35,210 nucleotides of DNA from a virus. Shown here one piece after another: positions 2,488-29,290 of this stretch. The notes under the pieces are model-generated. The model was not told the origin of the DNA, did no database searches, and was given only the letters and a program-made list of their open reading frames with translations. The DNA is taken from IMG/VR virus record IMGVR_UViG_3300006749_000048, positions 1 to 35,210 of that record; one strand, 5' to 3'. The position numbers and the translations under genes are program-made. Numbering within the stretch: the first letter of the stretch is position 1; every line of letters starts with the position of its first letter.

Positions 2488-3081
2488 TCAAGAAACAGGC
2501 ACCCAACCTCCACCAAAAGATAAATAAAGGCCGCTAGGCGGATCTACTCGATACCCAAATACACCTGAAGCAGGCACGGCTGGAAAAGCTCCACTGATTA
2601 CAGCTACTTCGAGAGCAAGAGCACCGGAAGCAAGTAAAGCTCCTGAAGCTATGGGAGTGCCTAATGCACCCGAGGCAACGACTGCACCAAATGCACCGGA
2701 AGCTACTAAGGCGCTATTTGCAACGATCGCACCTGATGCGATAGATACTGTCGCTGTTCCAGCTGCGTCAGCAAAAGCAGCGCCGATTTTGATGAATGCA
2801 GAACCGTCCCATACCCTAAGAAAATGATTTGTTCCGTCTTCTAACCACAGCTCGCCTACAGAATTACCTGTTGCGCCTGCCGGACTGCTATTGGGAGCAG
2901 TTGTTCCATAGTGGACACCGGTTACTTTACGAATATCACCAACAGAGTCTTTGAAGTAAAGGCCGTTTTCGGCGGCAGCAAAGTTAATCGCTAGCTCTCC
3001 TGCCTGGACAGTTGTATCTAAAGGTCGATCAGATGTATTACCAGATCTTTTAGAAAGAAGAGTTACTGGTGTGGTTGTCAT
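2488..3081 (-). CDS. tail-fibre-like protein with repeated ASGA motifs
   Basis: The 197-residue protein begins with TLLSKRSGNTSDRP and AGELAINFAAAENGLYFKD (about 27-45), the pattern common at the N-terminus of phage fibre or receptor-binding proteins. GELWLEDGTNHFLRVWDGSAF (about 75-95) is a second module of that kind. Residues 110-175 carry at least seven ASGA/SGAF-like units spaced 5-10 residues apart, suggesting a thin beta-rich shaft. The C-terminus is GLYLSFGGGWVPVS. The ATG follows directly on the stop codon of the 523-residue upstream gene, so the two are coupled. Confidence 0.65.
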   Translation of the reverse strand: MTTTPVTLLSKRSGNTSDRPLDTTVQAGELAINFAAAENGLYFKDSVGDIRKVTGVHYGTTAPNSSPAGATGNSVGELWLEDGTNHFLRVWDGSAFIKIGAAFADAAGTATVSIASGAIVANSALVASGAFGAVVASGALGTPIASGALLASGALALEVAVISGAFPAVPASGVFGYRVDPPSGLYLSFGGGWVPVS

Positions 3082-6817: not shown

Positions 6818-7438
6818 TTAGCGCCAATTTGCTTGGAAATATAGACGATCAGATCGTGATACATCAGGAGGTCCAGGTATTGCCTGAATGAACTCACCGC
6901 CTGATCTTTCGAAGCGGTAACGCGACGCCACGGGGTCTCTATAGTTTGCAACGTAAAGCATCTGGGCCAACCGATCGCATTCATACATATAGTTTTCTCT
7001 CCAAATTCTTGCAGTTTCTCTTTTATCTTGGATGTTAATAGAACGACTGACGTCTCCTAAAATCGTTTCTTGTCTGCTTGTGGCCCTACCGTCAGCTAAC
7101 TCAGTGAATCTTTCAGCTTCTTCACAACGCTCAATCTGCTGAACAATTTTGTCGTTATAAAACTCACTAGGAATGCTATTGCAAGCTTCCACTAACCTGG
7201 CGTAATCTCCAGCGGGAACAGTGGCGATGTTATAAGCAAGGTGATAAGCGACACGGCTAAAGTTATAGTCATCAAGCTTATATCCAAAAACCTGTGCAGG
7301 GTTGCGCGTGATCTGATTGATCGCCGCATAAATTACTTCACGCTTCGAAGCATCGGTAGACGTGGCGTTAAATGTGACACCTTGTTGAGCTAGATAACTT
7401 TGAATCTGCTCGAGTTCACTTTGCGTTAATTGAGCCAC
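6818..7438 (-). CDS. conserved phage protein, possible head-tail connector
   Basis: The 206-residue soluble protein starts with GTG. It is predicted all-helical up to about 130 (LTQSELEQIQSYLAQQGV, SKREVIYAAINQITRNPAQVFGYKLDDYNFSRVAYHLAYNIA), then has a WRENYMYECDRLAQMLYVANYRDPVASRYRFERSGG segment. It lies between the HhH protein gene and the disordered 510-residue protein gene, with short gaps. Composition and setting fit a connector or internal structural protein. I cannot name a family. Confidence 0.5.
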   Translation of the reverse strand: MAQLTQSELEQIQSYLAQQGVTFNATSTDASKREVIYAAINQITRNPAQVFGYKLDDYNFSRVAYHLAYNIATVPAGDYARLVEACNSIPSEFYNDKIVQQIERCEEAERFTELADGRATSRQETILGDVSRSINIQDKRETARIWRENYMYECDRLAQMLYVANYRDPVASRYRFERSGGEFIQAIPGPPDVSRSDRLYFQANWR

Positions 7439-7458
7439 GATCTAACAGACATATAGCT

Positions 7459-7911
7459 TTATTCTACGTAAACTTCACCGGTCGAAAAGACTTCGTCCCA
7501 GTCGATCCTTTTTACTGCCTTCAATTGATCCAGTTTACTGAATCGTTCTCCAGGCAAACCCATCTTCAACTCAATAATCTCTTTTGCGGTTTTGATACCG
7601 ACTCCAGGAAGAACTTGAGTGAGTCCTTCTGCTGTCAAGGTATTAAGGTTCACCCGGTTGTCCGTAGGCACCTGAGGTTTGACCACAATCGGCTCTTTTT
7701 TAGTAGATGTAACTTTTCTCCGGTTGCGGCGAGTGCGAGCAGGACCTTCGTCGGAACCGCCTTCAACAGCAACAAGCTCCTGGATTTGATCTTTGTGAGC
7801 GTAAAAGACTTTACCGCTTGTGTCAGATTGAACCATCATGTACTCACCCTCATCGTGAATCGATAAGACGGTGACTTTGATGCCGCTAGGGCCGTAAATT
7901 TTCGTAGACAT
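7459..7911 (-). CDS. ComEA-like helix-hairpin-helix DNA-binding protein
   Basis: The start is taken at ATG 7911; a GTG nine bases upstream is in frame. Residues 1-48 form a small beta domain (VTVLSIHDEGEYMMVQSDTSGKVFYAH), 55-85 a basic linker (RTRRNRRK), and 86-150 a ComEA-type HhH domain: VNLNTLTAEGLTQVLPGVGIKTAKEII, with the LPGVGIKTA hairpin at 101-109. This fold binds double-stranded DNA non-specifically. Set among virion genes it could coat or guide packaged or ejected DNA rather than act in competence; that is inference. Confidence 0.75.
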   Translation of the reverse strand: MSTKIYGPSGIKVTVLSIHDEGEYMMVQSDTSGKVFYAHKDQIQELVAVEGGSDEGPARTRRNRRKVTSTKKEPIVVKPQVPTDNRVNLNTLTAEGLTQVLPGVGIKTAKEIIELKMGLPGERFSKLDQLKAVKRIDWDEVFSTGEVYVE

Positions 7912-16934: not shown

Positions 16935-17807
16935 TCAGTAGGTAAACATGCTTTTCGTGTCAATCATACTTTGATCAGCAGAAAGAGCTGAAGAGTACTT
17001 ATTATCCAAATGTTCAAGAAGAGCAAAGTCAGGGATAGTCAAAGTGTCGCCATCCATTGCGAGGGGCACCACTCGTCGGTGCTCGGAGCCAGCGGGCACA
17101 TTTTCAAAAGCGAGTCCCATTGAAGATCTATCGGCAATAGGCCAGTTACGTTTGCCCGTGCGTGCGTAGCTTCTTATGGGATCACAGCTCTCACTATCTA
17201 TATAAATATCAGCGTCGTGTTGATCCAGAATCATCATGCCGTTGTAAGGATTGCCAAGCGAAGTGAACCCAACAAGTTCTGTTTCATAAGGTGTGATAAA
17301 CAGACCGGATCTATACGGAATGTCGCCCCAAACATTTTCTGTATCTCCTAATAAATTCCATTTACGATAATTATCAAAAGGAATTAATTTTTCCTTAATC
17401 TTTTCAACGCGACAAAAACCCGGCTCTAAATTTTTCGAACGCAAATAGTCTTTGTACTTGTACCAGTAATCAAAATGTTTTTTTGTAAAGACCATATCGT
17501 TCTCTGAGTACATATAAAAGTCATGAGTCTTCTCTCTAATACGTTTAATCAGCGTGGGTTTATGCGCCCAACAAAGGTCAAACCCTCTGTATTCTGGCCC
17601 TGCAACCGCAAAAGCGACCCTACCAAGCTTCGTGTGAGAAGCGACGATCATGGAAAATTCGTCTAGATCATGACGGCTGTTGTGATCAATAACGATCTCA
17701 ATCTGCTTGTCAAGCTCCAGGCTCTCATAACCTTTTAGAACTTTCAGAGTGGTTTCGATTCTTGAAAGCGGACTGTGCGCGGTGATCGTGATGTAAATTG
17801 ATTTCAT
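16935..17807 (-). CDS. GT-A type glycosyltransferase-like protein
   Basis: The 290-residue protein begins with a Rossmann-like strand (KSIYITITAHSPLSRIETTLKVLKGY) and IEIVIDHNSRHD, as in GT2-type enzymes, followed by DFYMYSENDMVFTKKHFDYW (about 96-115), where ENDM probably replaces the metal-binding DxD. The second half holds NVWGDIPYRSGLFITPYE and PYNGMMILDQHDADIYIDSES. Similar proteins occur among sugar-modifying genes of large phages. The ATG shares bases with the terminase stop codon (TGATG), so it is translated with terminase. The target, virion or host envelope, cannot be told. Confidence 0.65.
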   Translation of the reverse strand: MKSIYITITAHSPLSRIETTLKVLKGYESLELDKQIEIVIDHNSRHDLDEFSMIVASHTKLGRVAFAVAGPEYRGFDLCWAHKPTLIKRIREKTHDFYMYSENDMVFTKKHFDYWYKYKDYLRSKNLEPGFCRVEKIKEKLIPFDNYRKWNLLGDTENVWGDIPYRSGLFITPYETELVGFTSLGNPYNGMMILDQHDADIYIDSESCDPIRSYARTGKRNWPIADRSSMGLAFENVPAGSEHRRVVPLAMDGDTLTIPDFALLEHLDNKYSSALSADQSMIDTKSMFTY

Positions 17808-19327
17808 CAGTACTCAATAGAAAAGTTACCGCGTCGTTGAAGAAACGTCATGAGCCAGGTGTAAGCGTCGAGTAAATCATCGTGTGAAGTCGCTCCTACG
17901 TTAATGAGCTGGTCCACAAGCGCATCAAACTTTCTGTACTTGTTAAAGATAACTTTTTTGTTTTCTAGAAGACCAAGCGTGCCTCTGAAACGGGCTACTT
18001 TGTCGCCTCTAAAACCTTTAACTTCGTGAACATGGAGGTTAGACAACCCTCTTTCCTGCAGAAGAACTCTTCTCAAATCAGCAGCTAGAGAAGCTTGATA
18101 AGCAACAGCCTCAACAACCAGTGTCACTGTGGAGTAAGTAGGAAAGTAGGTGTCATTCTGTAGCTCTAGGATCCCCCACTCGACGAGCATGTCACAAAGT
18201 AAGTCGATTTTTTCGAGATTTCCAATCGATCTGACTTGGTGAGCGTCGATTACGTAGTACTTATCTTTTAAACGTCCGCCTAAAACAAATGCTGTGTAAT
18301 CCGAAGTCTCATTTTTACTCGCCGAAAGATCAATCCCTACTGCTAACGAATCAAATTCTGTCTCAACTGTGCCTTTGACGATCAAATCTGGAGATAAGAC
18401 CAGATCTGATGTCATGACTGGTTGTTGCTGGTATTGGTAAGCGAAAGCAACCGGGTCTAACTCCTTTTGTCCCTGTAAATACTCCACAGACCACTGCTCA
18501 GGCCAATAACTCATCGGCTCTCCCTCTTTGTTGTAAGTCAGAGCTTCCTGTGCGACCTGTTTCCAGCCTTTCTGGGGGACAAACATAGTTTTATGGATGT
18601 CAAGAGGATGGAATCGAGTGCCCAGACAAATGGAACGACCTCCTTCGAACACAATCGGTGCGATAACTGAAGACCAGTTATTGTTCATCTCCTCTCGCAC
18701 CGCAGGATTTTTGATATCAGAACTTGATTTGATCGGGTCATCCACGATCACAAGGTGAGCCCGTTTAGACGTAATTGAACCTCTAAGACCAGCAGCACGA
18801 AGAGTAAATTCTTCATCACCAATCCTGTCGATACCTGCGTAATCAAAGTCAACCGACCAACCAATATCACTCTGCATACCTGCTTTGAGCTTGACCCTAG
18901 GAAATATCTTTTTGAAAGTAGATGCATCAATAATTTGTTTGATGATTCGGCTTTTAGGGATAGCTGTGGCAATGTTGTATGAGCAGTAGATAATCTGTAA
19001 AGGTCTGCCCGCCTGAGTGTGTCTGCCGATCACCCAAGCTGTGAACAAATTTAGAACAGTGCTTTTTGCCGAACCGCGAGGACTCAAAATATCCAGGTTT
19101 GGCCCAGCAATATCCAGAAGATATTTATTACTGTCTCCAGTTATAAGTTCACGATGCCACTCGAGCATGTGTCTAGCTGGTGGCTTGTCAAGAAGCGTAC
19201 AGAATGTCAAGAAGTCATCTTGAGCTCTTGTAAAAACATTATCTATAGCAGTGTCTTCTGTTTCAACAGCTTTTTGAGCTCGGAGCTTTAAGTTGCGTCG
19301 GTAAGCAAAAGTTTCTCTGCTAGGCAT
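17807..19327 (-). CDS. terL: terminase large subunit
   Basis: This is the packaging motor: an ATPase pumps DNA into the prohead and a nuclease cuts it. All motifs are visible in the 506 residues: Walker A SPRGSAKST (82-90), Walker B LVIVDDP (192-198), the coupling motif GTRFHP (236-241), and the RNase H-like nuclease with GIDLSASKNETSDYTA (331-346), VVEAVAYQ (404-411) and HDDLLDAYTWL near 485-495. It opens the leftward operon that continues through a glycosyltransferase and DUF3310. Divergent from the GT4 gene across 44 bp that contain a palindrome-like promoter motif. No small subunit is certain; the 21755-22285 product is one candidate. Confidence 0.95.
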   Translation of the reverse strand: MPSRETFAYRRNLKLRAQKAVETEDTAIDNVFTRAQDDFLTFCTLLDKPPARHMLEWHRELITGDSNKYLLDIAGPNLDILSPRGSAKSTVLNLFTAWVIGRHTQAGRPLQIIYCSYNIATAIPKSRIIKQIIDASTFKKIFPRVKLKAGMQSDIGWSVDFDYAGIDRIGDEEFTLRAAGLRGSITSKRAHLVIVDDPIKSSSDIKNPAVREEMNNNWSSVIAPIVFEGGRSICLGTRFHPLDIHKTMFVPQKGWKQVAQEALTYNKEGEPMSYWPEQWSVEYLQGQKELDPVAFAYQYQQQPVMTSDLVLSPDLIVKGTVETEFDSLAVGIDLSASKNETSDYTAFVLGGRLKDKYYVIDAHQVRSIGNLEKIDLLCDMLVEWGILELQNDTYFPTYSTVTLVVEAVAYQASLAADLRRVLLQERGLSNLHVHEVKGFRGDKVARFRGTLGLLENKKVIFNKYRKFDALVDQLINVGATSHDDLLDAYTWLMTFLQRRGNFSIEY

Positions 19328-23749: not shown

Positions 23750-24367
23750 TTACTTAGTAATTGTGCGAACAGCACCCAGATTGCCTAGGTAAGAGGCAGG
23801 TAAAGCACTTTCTAATACTTTACTCAAACCTGCTTGAGCTAGTTGACTTTGAGCAGTGCCGATTTGACCGATTGAAGTCATCAAATTAGGGAGAGCAGCG
23901 ACTTCTCCTTGTACCCGCATCTCCTCCATTTTCCTACGTGAAGATTGATTCAGCTGTTCGTTCAGACGTGCAGCAGTATCATTGAGGATTTGGTTTACAT
24001 CTATAGGTGCCTCCCCTGTAAAACGACGTCTGAAATTAATTCGGTCTGCAAACTGCTCAAGAGCTAAGACGTCTTGTGCGGTGATTGTAAATTTACCCGA
24101 CGTTCCAGTCGTTTGCGTTCCAGCAGGCGATCTCAGTGCGCCGCCTTGTCCTAAAAGTAATTTAAGAAGTTCTGGAGCAGCAGCAGCGCCAGCACTTCCA
24201 AGCAGTGAACTTTGGATTGCGCCCAATGTCGGTCCAGCCCCGCCACCCGCAGCAGCTGGCAAAGCAACAGGCATTCTCACCATGGGAGAGGCAACCTTAG
24301 TTGCTGCTGCTACACCGCCAGGTAAAATGTTTTGCAACATGGTAGATACGTTCGTAGCTCGGCTCAT
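23750..24367 (-). CDS. Ala-rich helical protein of the internal-protein cluster
   Basis: A 205-residue protein. The N-terminal half is hydrophobic and Ala/Gly-rich (KVASPMVRMPVALPAAAGGGAGPTLGAIQSSLLGSAGAAAAPELLKLLLG), and the second half helical and charged (ALEQFADRINFRRRF, ILNDTAARLNEQLNQSSRRKMEEMRVQGEVAALPNL). The opening MSRATNVSTMLQ is loosely like MSRAQGISALLR of the 5256-6788 protein. It is likely a head-interior or tail-assembly component, inferred from composition and tight packing (2-bp gaps). Confidence 0.5.
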   Translation of the reverse strand: MSRATNVSTMLQNILPGGVAAATKVASPMVRMPVALPAAAGGGAGPTLGAIQSSLLGSAGAAAAPELLKLLLGQGGALRSPAGTQTTGTSGKFTITAQDVLALEQFADRINFRRRFTGEAPIDVNQILNDTAARLNEQLNQSSRRKMEEMRVQGEVAALPNLMTSIGQIGTAQSQLAQAGLSKVLESALPASYLGNLGAVRTITK

Positions 24368-27768: not shown

Positions 27769-27854
27769 TACCCGAGGCGAGACTTGAACTCGCACGACTT
27801 TAACAAGTCAGCGGATTTTAAGTCCGATCCGTCTACCGATTCCGGCACTCGGGC
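27769..27854 (-). tRNA. tRNA-Leu(UAA), intron-less
   Basis: A complete class II cloverleaf on the minus strand, 86 nt: 7-bp acceptor (GCCCGAG with CTCGGGT, first pair G:U), anticodon loop CTTAAAA with TAA at positions 34-36, a long variable arm (GACTT-GTTA-AAGTC), and a T arm GCGAG-TTCAAGT-CTCGC. The discriminator base is A, as in leucine tRNAs. The outermost anticodon-stem pair is a mismatch (T:C). CCA is not encoded. It lacks the group I intron common in the cyanobacterial host gene. It could support UUA codons during infection. Confidence 0.95.
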
Positions 27855-27906: not shown

Positions 27907-28623
27907 ATGACAGCGACGTCGTTCAAAGAGCTAATGGGACAGCTCAAAGAGGATACGACAGTACAAGTGACACCTGCAGACAAAAAACAACTTGCAGATC
28001 ACTACAACTTCACCGAAGGCTGGTATGACGCACTTTTGAACACCGATAAAGCCATTCGTAGCAACACTCAAGGTCCAAAGATTGATCTTGATCCAGCAGA
28101 AAAGCGTCAAATCGTAGAAATTGGCGTTTACGAAGGCGCATCTAGCTGTTTTTGGTCAGATTTTTACCTAGATCACGAAGAATCATCTCTGATCTCTATT
28201 GATCCGTTCACAGGAAGCGAAGAGCATCACGCAAACCCTGAAAAATACGCGGGACTTGAACGACTAGAGCGGACCGCTCGCGAAAATATCGCAAAATCTA
28301 AAAATTGCGGCAAAATCGAAATAATTAAAGGGTACTCACAGTATGTTTTTAAAGATCTGGACGCTCGTTTTGGTATTGAGCCTTGGATTGATGTTCTTTA
28401 CATCGACGGAGCCCACGACTCTGTGGCCGTCGCTAGAGATTGCACCCTCTTCATCCCTATGGTCAAGCCAGGTGGACTTGTTTTCTTTGATGACTACGCC
28501 CACCCTGATGTAAAACGAGCTATCGATGGCGCTTTGACGGCTTTTGCCAAGTTTGAATTTGCCATCTTTACCGGTTGGCAGCTCGTAGGCAAAGTAGCTT
28601 CCGTCGCGAACAAGCACGCTTGA
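27907..28623 (+). CDS. class I SAM-dependent methyltransferase (Methyltransf_24 type)
   Basis: The 238-residue protein has motif I IVEIGVYEGASSCFW (69-83), a strand-2 acidic residue (SLISIDPFTGS, Asp99), WIDVLYIDGAHDSVAVARD (about 159-177) and GGLVFFDDYAHPDVKRAIDG (about 189-208). These match Methyltransf_24 proteins often found beside glycan-synthesis genes, such as cephalosporin hydroxylase-like and sugar O-methyltransferases. It is alone on the plus strand; a structured hairpin follows the stop immediately and probably ends its transcript. Confidence 0.85.
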   Translation: MTATSFKELMGQLKEDTTVQVTPADKKQLADHYNFTEGWYDALLNTDKAIRSNTQGPKIDLDPAEKRQIVEIGVYEGASSCFWSDFYLDHEESSLISIDPFTGSEEHHANPEKYAGLERLERTARENIAKSKNCGKIEIIKGYSQYVFKDLDARFGIEPWIDVLYIDGAHDSVAVARDCTLFIPMVKPGGLVFFDDYAHPDVKRAIDGALTAFAKFEFAIFTGWQLVGKVASVANKHA

Positions 28624-28626
28624 TAA

Positions 28627-28672
28627 AGCAAAACTCCGGTTGGTTCACCCAAACCCCCGGAGTAATTTTGCT
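28627..28672 (+). terminator. bidirectional terminator-like hairpin
   Basis: AGCAAAA pairs with TTTTGCT and CTCCGG with CCGGAG, separated on the 3' side by a 3-nt bulge (TAA); TTGG/CCAA pair inside the loop. It begins 3 bp after the methyltransferase stop codon. T-rich flanks on both strands would allow termination in either direction, though the U-tract is short. Confidence 0.6.
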
Positions 28673-28803
28673 CTGCAGCCTAGTTAGGCTCTTTCTCCTC
28701 CAGGTGGGGATCTAAGGAGAAGGGGCACGTAATCCCTTGCCCGCACAGCAAATATACCAATTGTTGTGGGTCTGTCAACGCTGCTCCCACAGAAACAATT
28801 GTT

Positions 28804-28839
28804 GCAGCTTGCCGCAGTCGACGTTTTTTATTTACACCC
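28804..28839. repeat. direct repeat copy 1 (36 bp)
   Basis: Begins GCAGCTTGCCGCA, continues CGACGTTTTT and ends CACCC. It matches the copy at 28905-28940 at 30 of 36 positions, starts 101 bp apart, with no insertions or deletions. Confidence 0.85.
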
Positions 28840-28904
28840 AACTTCCCTGCCCCCTCTAACGCTTGTGGTCTCACCCCTTCCTGCGGCCACAGTGTTTTAT
28901 TCCT

Positions 28905-28940
28905 GCAGCTTGCCGCACACGACGTTTTTGTTCTTCACCC
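28905..28940. repeat. direct repeat copy 2 (36 bp)
   Basis: Second copy of the 28804-28839 repeat. Differences cluster after the first 13 bases and in the T-rich end. The conserved cores GCAGCTTGCCGCA and CGACGTTTTT could be protein-binding sites. Confidence 0.85.
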
Positions 28941-29080
28941 TTCGAAATATTATGTCAAGAGCGTGTGTCCGTGGGTCAACCCACTCTTGACGACCTTGCC
29001 TTGTAAGCACACAAGACCGGGGGGTCCCTCGGTTGACGGGTCTAGTTTGATCTAGTTAATAACTATGGTCAAGTTAATTT

Positions 29081-29290
29081 TTATATTCGATTGTTCTTTA
29101 ATAGCAACTCCATATACACAGCGTAGAAAAAGTTCTTAGTGTCCTGTAGATCTTGCTGCTCCTGTGGCTCACCACCCGACCACTTGTCCAAAGCAAATGA
29201 CAGAGCGTCGTAAGTAATTTTTGCCGTGTAGTAATCCAGAGTGATGATGCACTGGATGATATTTTCTTCTTCATCATCCAGCTCAAACAT
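29081..29290 (-). CDS. small conserved-looking helical protein
   Basis: A 69-residue protein, MFELDDEEENIIQCIITLDYYTAKITYDALSFALDKWSGGEP followed by a second helix ending in KNNRI. Its helices and WSGGEP turn look like a real folded protein of a type common in cyanophages, but I cannot name it. Its ATG overlaps the stop of the 273-residue gene upstream (TGATG), so the two are coupled, and it is the last gene before the hairpin-rich non-coding region. Confidence 0.6.
   Translation of the reverse strand: MFELDDEEENIIQCIITLDYYTAKITYDALSFALDKWSGGEPQEQQDLQDTKNFFYAVYMELLLKNNRI

Follow-up and report, generated by a model that had tools for sequence, protein, structure and literature searches.

We found that the space between two convergent genes of an uncultured phage very probably holds a structured RNA gene on the minus strand, a reading drawn from comparative sequence analysis. 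The window, a 35,210-base virus record (IMG/VR IMGVR_UViG_3300006749_000048), contains a 457 bp stretch (28624-29080) with no long ORF, and the many hairpins that the initial annotation had placed here between convergent transcription units were confirmed by folding and by the gene layout. That annotation held the structure to exceed what a terminator needs and to be perhaps a non-coding RNA, an origin or a packaging element; the first of these options is backed by covariation, covariance model (CM) hits to held-out relatives, a conserved promoter and synteny, and the other two gained no support. The best explanation of the whole, to which we give about an even chance, is a small RNA gene read leftward whose C-rich loop pairs with the starts of mRNAs. 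The region comprises the following features:

27907..28623, plus strand: class-I methyltransferase gene (PF13578, profile match), convergent, syntenic marker
28624..28744, minus strand: subtype I small RNA gene of about 120 nt, ends inferred (CM R2 hold-out hits, compensatory changes, folding z -3.1)
28742-28723, minus strand: hairpin P1 (predicted fold and CM)
28721-28693, minus strand: hairpin P2 (predicted fold and CM)
28706..28712, minus strand: GAUCCCC in the P2 loop (fold and comparison)
28690-28677, minus strand: hairpin P3 (predicted fold and CM)
28671-28628, minus strand: hairpin P4 (predicted fold and CM)
28623..28671, minus strand: 3' hairpin P4 (GCAAAA..CUCCGG..CCGGAG..UUUUGC) with UUUAU tail, possible terminator, tail weak by sequence
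28751..28778, minus strand: sigma-70-type promoter TTGACA-16-TATATT facing the RNA, 11/12 consensus (motif)
28765..28791, no strand assigned: TGTGG-N17-CCACA inverted repeat of unit 2, with the -35 box between its arms (motif)
28798..28839, minus strand: repeat unit 2 core, AAAAAACGUCG-NN-UGCGGCAAGCUGCA (self-comparison and relatives)
28864..28891, no strand assigned: inverted repeat TGTGG-N18-CCACA of unit 1 (motif)
28899..28940, minus strand: repeat unit 1 core (self-comparison and relatives)
28953..28990, minus strand: additional long hairpin GTCAAGAG..CTCTTGAC, preceding repeat unit 1, sequence not obviously conserved (folding)
29081..29290, minus strand: gene upstream of the RNA, 69 aa, function unassigned (phrog_628; ORF list and profile match)

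The RNA segment folded alone (28619-28750, minus strand) gave z = -3.1, with 1 of 300 shuffles equally stable. Instead of the one G+C hairpin and U-run of a bare intrinsic terminator, it has four hairpins and a poor U-run, and its own termination signal is weak. Model R2, trained on the window and four close relatives with L004 and L014 left out, matched both of these held-out, diverged loci (E 8e-12 and E 2.5e-10, respectively), and in a further scan R2 returned L004 again, together with L002, which is a copy of the L014 contig. In the subtype I alignment, which is model-fitted and hence leans toward the model, 93.8% of cells were paired and 13 pairs carried two-sided changes. The covariation score was reached by 0 of 500 shuffles and pairing fell to 36-53% with slid partners, so that in this comparison with related phages, a check proposed at the outset, compensatory changes lay far above both kinds of control. 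Such changes were also read by hand in unambiguous stems (P2, C-G to U-A; P3, A-U to G-C and C-G to U-A; P4, G-C to A-U), and the RNA refolds in L007, L010, L011, L014 and L004. Across the long hairpin at window 28953-28990, the equivalent stretch of L008 and L010 holds a hairpin unrelated in sequence, GTCCGGGTTAG..CTAACCCGGAC.

Using the methyltransferase as query, we collected 37 and then 59 IMG/VR loci (overlapping sets), and in 19 IMG/VR contigs besides the window the RNA lies 3' of this same gene, taking one of two architectures. The window's closest relatives have the same arrangement at the same intergenic spot. Subtype II is a shorter RNA, located at this spot in twelve further contigs; its hairpin one carries an 8-nt 5' bulge (GAUCCCCC) and its hairpin two is G+C-rich. 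Here 94% of cells were paired, 10 pairs showed two-sided changes, the covariation score exceeded that of all 500 shuffles, and the subtype II model R1 matched the held-out L071 (63 bits, E 1e-13). Since the covariance models of the two subtypes do not detect each other, their shared origin rests on the locus, the promoter position and the motif UCCCC; these sequence features make common descent likely. On the opposite side of the methyltransferase gene from the RNA, the window carries a tRNA-Leu (UAA) (27769-27854, minus strand), and a tRNA was found at the equivalent place in 8 relatives examined.

Searches for known families returned only tRNA from Rfam 15 at the gathering cut-off and nothing credible at permissive thresholds, the best sub-threshold match being Pxr (22.8 bits, against a cut-off of 80). 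Nor did GenBank phages yield any match to the region by BLAST; scans of collections with narrow patterns turned up no further RNA outside the methyltransferase context, and the 273-aa upstream gene led to no relatives; the methyltransferase itself had two remote matches only in prokaryote genomes. By these comparisons this appears to be a real structured RNA family, new to Rfam 15 and, by BLAST, to GenBank phages; its general kind, the phage-encoded small RNA, is known. Because the window's terminase (17807-19327) shares 48.7% identity with its counterpart in Synechococcus phage S-EIV1, against <25% for the next listed records, we place the phage nearest to the S-EIV1 cyanophage lineage and infer that these uncultured phages probably have a cyanobacterial host. 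S-EIV1 itself lacks the motif by pattern and gave no CM hit.

The UCCCC core was present in 15 of 15 loci compared, in both subtypes despite their differing stems, and is exposed in a loop or bulge as in C-rich-loop antisense sRNAs. In the mechanism that we propose, host RNA polymerase would presumably transcribe the RNA leftward, starting at the gene's own sigma-70 promoter and ending tail-to-tail with the methyltransferase gene; the exposed C-rich loop may then pair with G-rich translation-start regions of mRNAs and so alter their translation. We regard antisense action through this loop, argued by analogy, as possible and somewhat doubtful. G-tracts near start codons in the window were mildly enriched (7/49 v 6.5% background), and no conserved G-tract was found at those start regions of relatives that could be checked; since the phage excess is mild and unconserved, host mRNAs would be likelier targets than phage mRNAs. 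At two places in the window (2488-3081 and 23750-24367), GGGGG stands shortly before an ATG and could pair with UCCCC; relatives for judging its conservation were not found.

An RNA that acts on a protein, be it RNA polymerase, a ribonuclease or a defence protein, with UCCCC as the contact motif, would agree with the failure of the mRNA target search and with an invariant motif displayed by a loop in subtype I and by an 8-nt bulge in subtype II. We consider this unlikely, as the motif matches those of known C-loop pairing sRNAs (PMC3771888) and the sequence suggests no protein partner.

The minus strand is favoured for the RNA because G-U outnumbers A-C on that strand, and because of the promoter. 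Across both subtypes we counted 39 G-U against 12 A-C cells, an asymmetry that by columns (13 v 6) is not significant alone. A promoter of the form TTGAYA-16-TATNWT recurred in each of the six subtype-I loci examined (window, L004, L007, L010, L011, L014), its spacing and placement unchanged and each match being equalled by at most 3 of 300 shuffles, while subtype-II promoters were weak (7-9 of 12 positions). Thus the own promoter of an independent small RNA gene is present in subtype I and weak in subtype II. Folding of the whole region (461 nt) gave z = -3.05 on the plus strand and -1.16 on the minus strand, and the repeat-bearing stretch gave z = -2.5 on the plus strand and about 0 as a minus-strand RNA. 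The structures might belong to the plus strand, as an elaborate 3' UTR or terminator that protects or ends the methyltransferase mRNA, given that the element always lies just 3' of this gene and its stems fold on both strands. This is improbable in our view: the near-consensus promoter conserved in subtype I and the excess of G-U pairs both point to the minus strand, no U-run follows the plus-strand hairpin, and the conservation of the C-rich loop exceeds what termination needs.

By sequence comparison, the direct repeat is a conserved element separate from the minus-strand RNA. The 36-bp repeat described in the initial annotation (30 of 36 identical, 101 bp apart) held up, with 300 dinucleotide shuffles giving at most 24/36; it lies within two 42-nt cores that are 81% identical, and the longest exact repeat was 14 nt, against a maximum of 13 nt in dinucleotide shuffles of the 457-bp stretch. 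Repeat and hairpins had been described as one element; both are present, but they form two modules, and the RNA does not include the repeat, because a 2OG-Fe(II) oxygenase-like gene separates the repeat from the RNA promoter in five relatives (L007, at 7006-7584 on the minus strand, L008, L009, L011 and L014). This gene, recognised in L007 from a sub-threshold match, is absent at that position in the window, L010 and L004, and where it intervenes the RNA keeps its promoter. In L008-L011, a minus-strand coiled-coil-like ORF of about 57 aa, which has no counterpart in the window, lies just upstream of repeat unit 1 with its stop codon at the repeat's A-run.

Across relatives, each unit consists of a core (AAAAACG..GCAAGCTGC) followed by TGTGG-N17-32-CCACA, and in most subtype-I relatives the RNA gene is preceded by two such units in tandem; in some relatives a stop codon stands immediately before the first of them. 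Elsewhere the core gave a stray match in L026 coding sequence and a doubtful one at L015:11192. A candidate hairpin inside the core (UGCGGCAAGCUGCA; in L081, read by eye, UGGGGCAAGCUCCA) showed one possible compensatory change only. The repeat may be an operator, a 3'-end signal or an RNA hairpin. In the window, and likewise in L004 and L010, the -35 box of the RNA promoter sits in the N17 spacer between the TGTGG/CCACA arms of the second inverted repeat, so the repeat could also modulate this promoter, a role that we hold to be rather unlikely.

Packaging (cos/pac) sites usually lie near terminase genes. With 9 kb between it and the terminase here, and with its occurrence tied to the methyltransferase gene rather than the terminase, the element gains no support as a packaging site; GC skew, proposed as a check for a role in replication, had no inflection at 28624-29080 and so lends an origin no support, a weak test on a genome fragment. 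The tandem units in many relatives and the inverted repeat around the -35 box would suit a repeat that is itself the functional core (origin iterons, packaging site or regulator operators) with incidental hairpins, yet the missing skew inflection, the distance to the terminase and the persistence of the RNA where a gene separates it from the repeat leave this with little probability. Equally slight is the chance that the RNA regulates the neighbouring methyltransferase in cis or as an antisense RNA, pairing with the gene's 3' end after readthrough past P4, as the tail-to-tail overlap at 28623, the weak terminator and its occurrence in these relatives only beside this gene would allow, since the conserved part is the structured RNA rather than the overlap and the spacing varies, with an extra small ORF between methyltransferase and RNA in subtype I relatives.

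The leftward small RNA gene is comparatively well supported as a structured RNA, cyanophage non-coding RNAs in the literature consulted being mostly Rfam-based predictions or psbA antisense RNA. Both covariance models can be used at once on cyanophage genomes and infection transcriptomes, and the invariant motif gives a concrete target prediction. Taken to its furthest, the proposal is of a new cyanophage sRNA family with a four-hairpin and a two-hairpin form, an invariant UCCCC and one syntenic locus, which would re-program host translation through G-rich ribosome-binding regions while infection proceeds; we put this forward tentatively, and think it more apt to fail than to hold.

Among known RNAs, Cyanophage Functional RNA I (CfrI) is likewise a cyanophage non-coding RNA, but it is antisense to psbA (PMC12197685), whereas the RNA here is intergenic and structured. 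The cyanophage abiF sRNA and the wcaG, manA and glnA cis elements were predicted from Rfam matches (PMC9964418); ours is likewise structured and predicted, but it scores below the gathering cut-off of every Rfam family. VpdS and PreS are trans-acting phage sRNAs able to re-tune host mRNAs, PreS being strongly Hfq-dependent and VpdS competing for Hfq (PMC12197685); the likeness is that of a phage-made RNA with a similar proposed role. In Xanthomonas, the targets that sX13 represses, without need of Hfq, are mRNAs carrying G-rich motifs close to their starts, and Helicobacter HPnc5490/RepG, which has a UCCCCCU loop, has been noted as similar (PMC3771888). The present RNA differs from these two in being phage-encoded, with neither a sequence or Rfam relation to them nor a target found here, and it has one C-rich loop or bulge where sX13 has three C-rich loops. 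Like both, it is small, has several stable hairpins and carries a CCCC motif in a loop.
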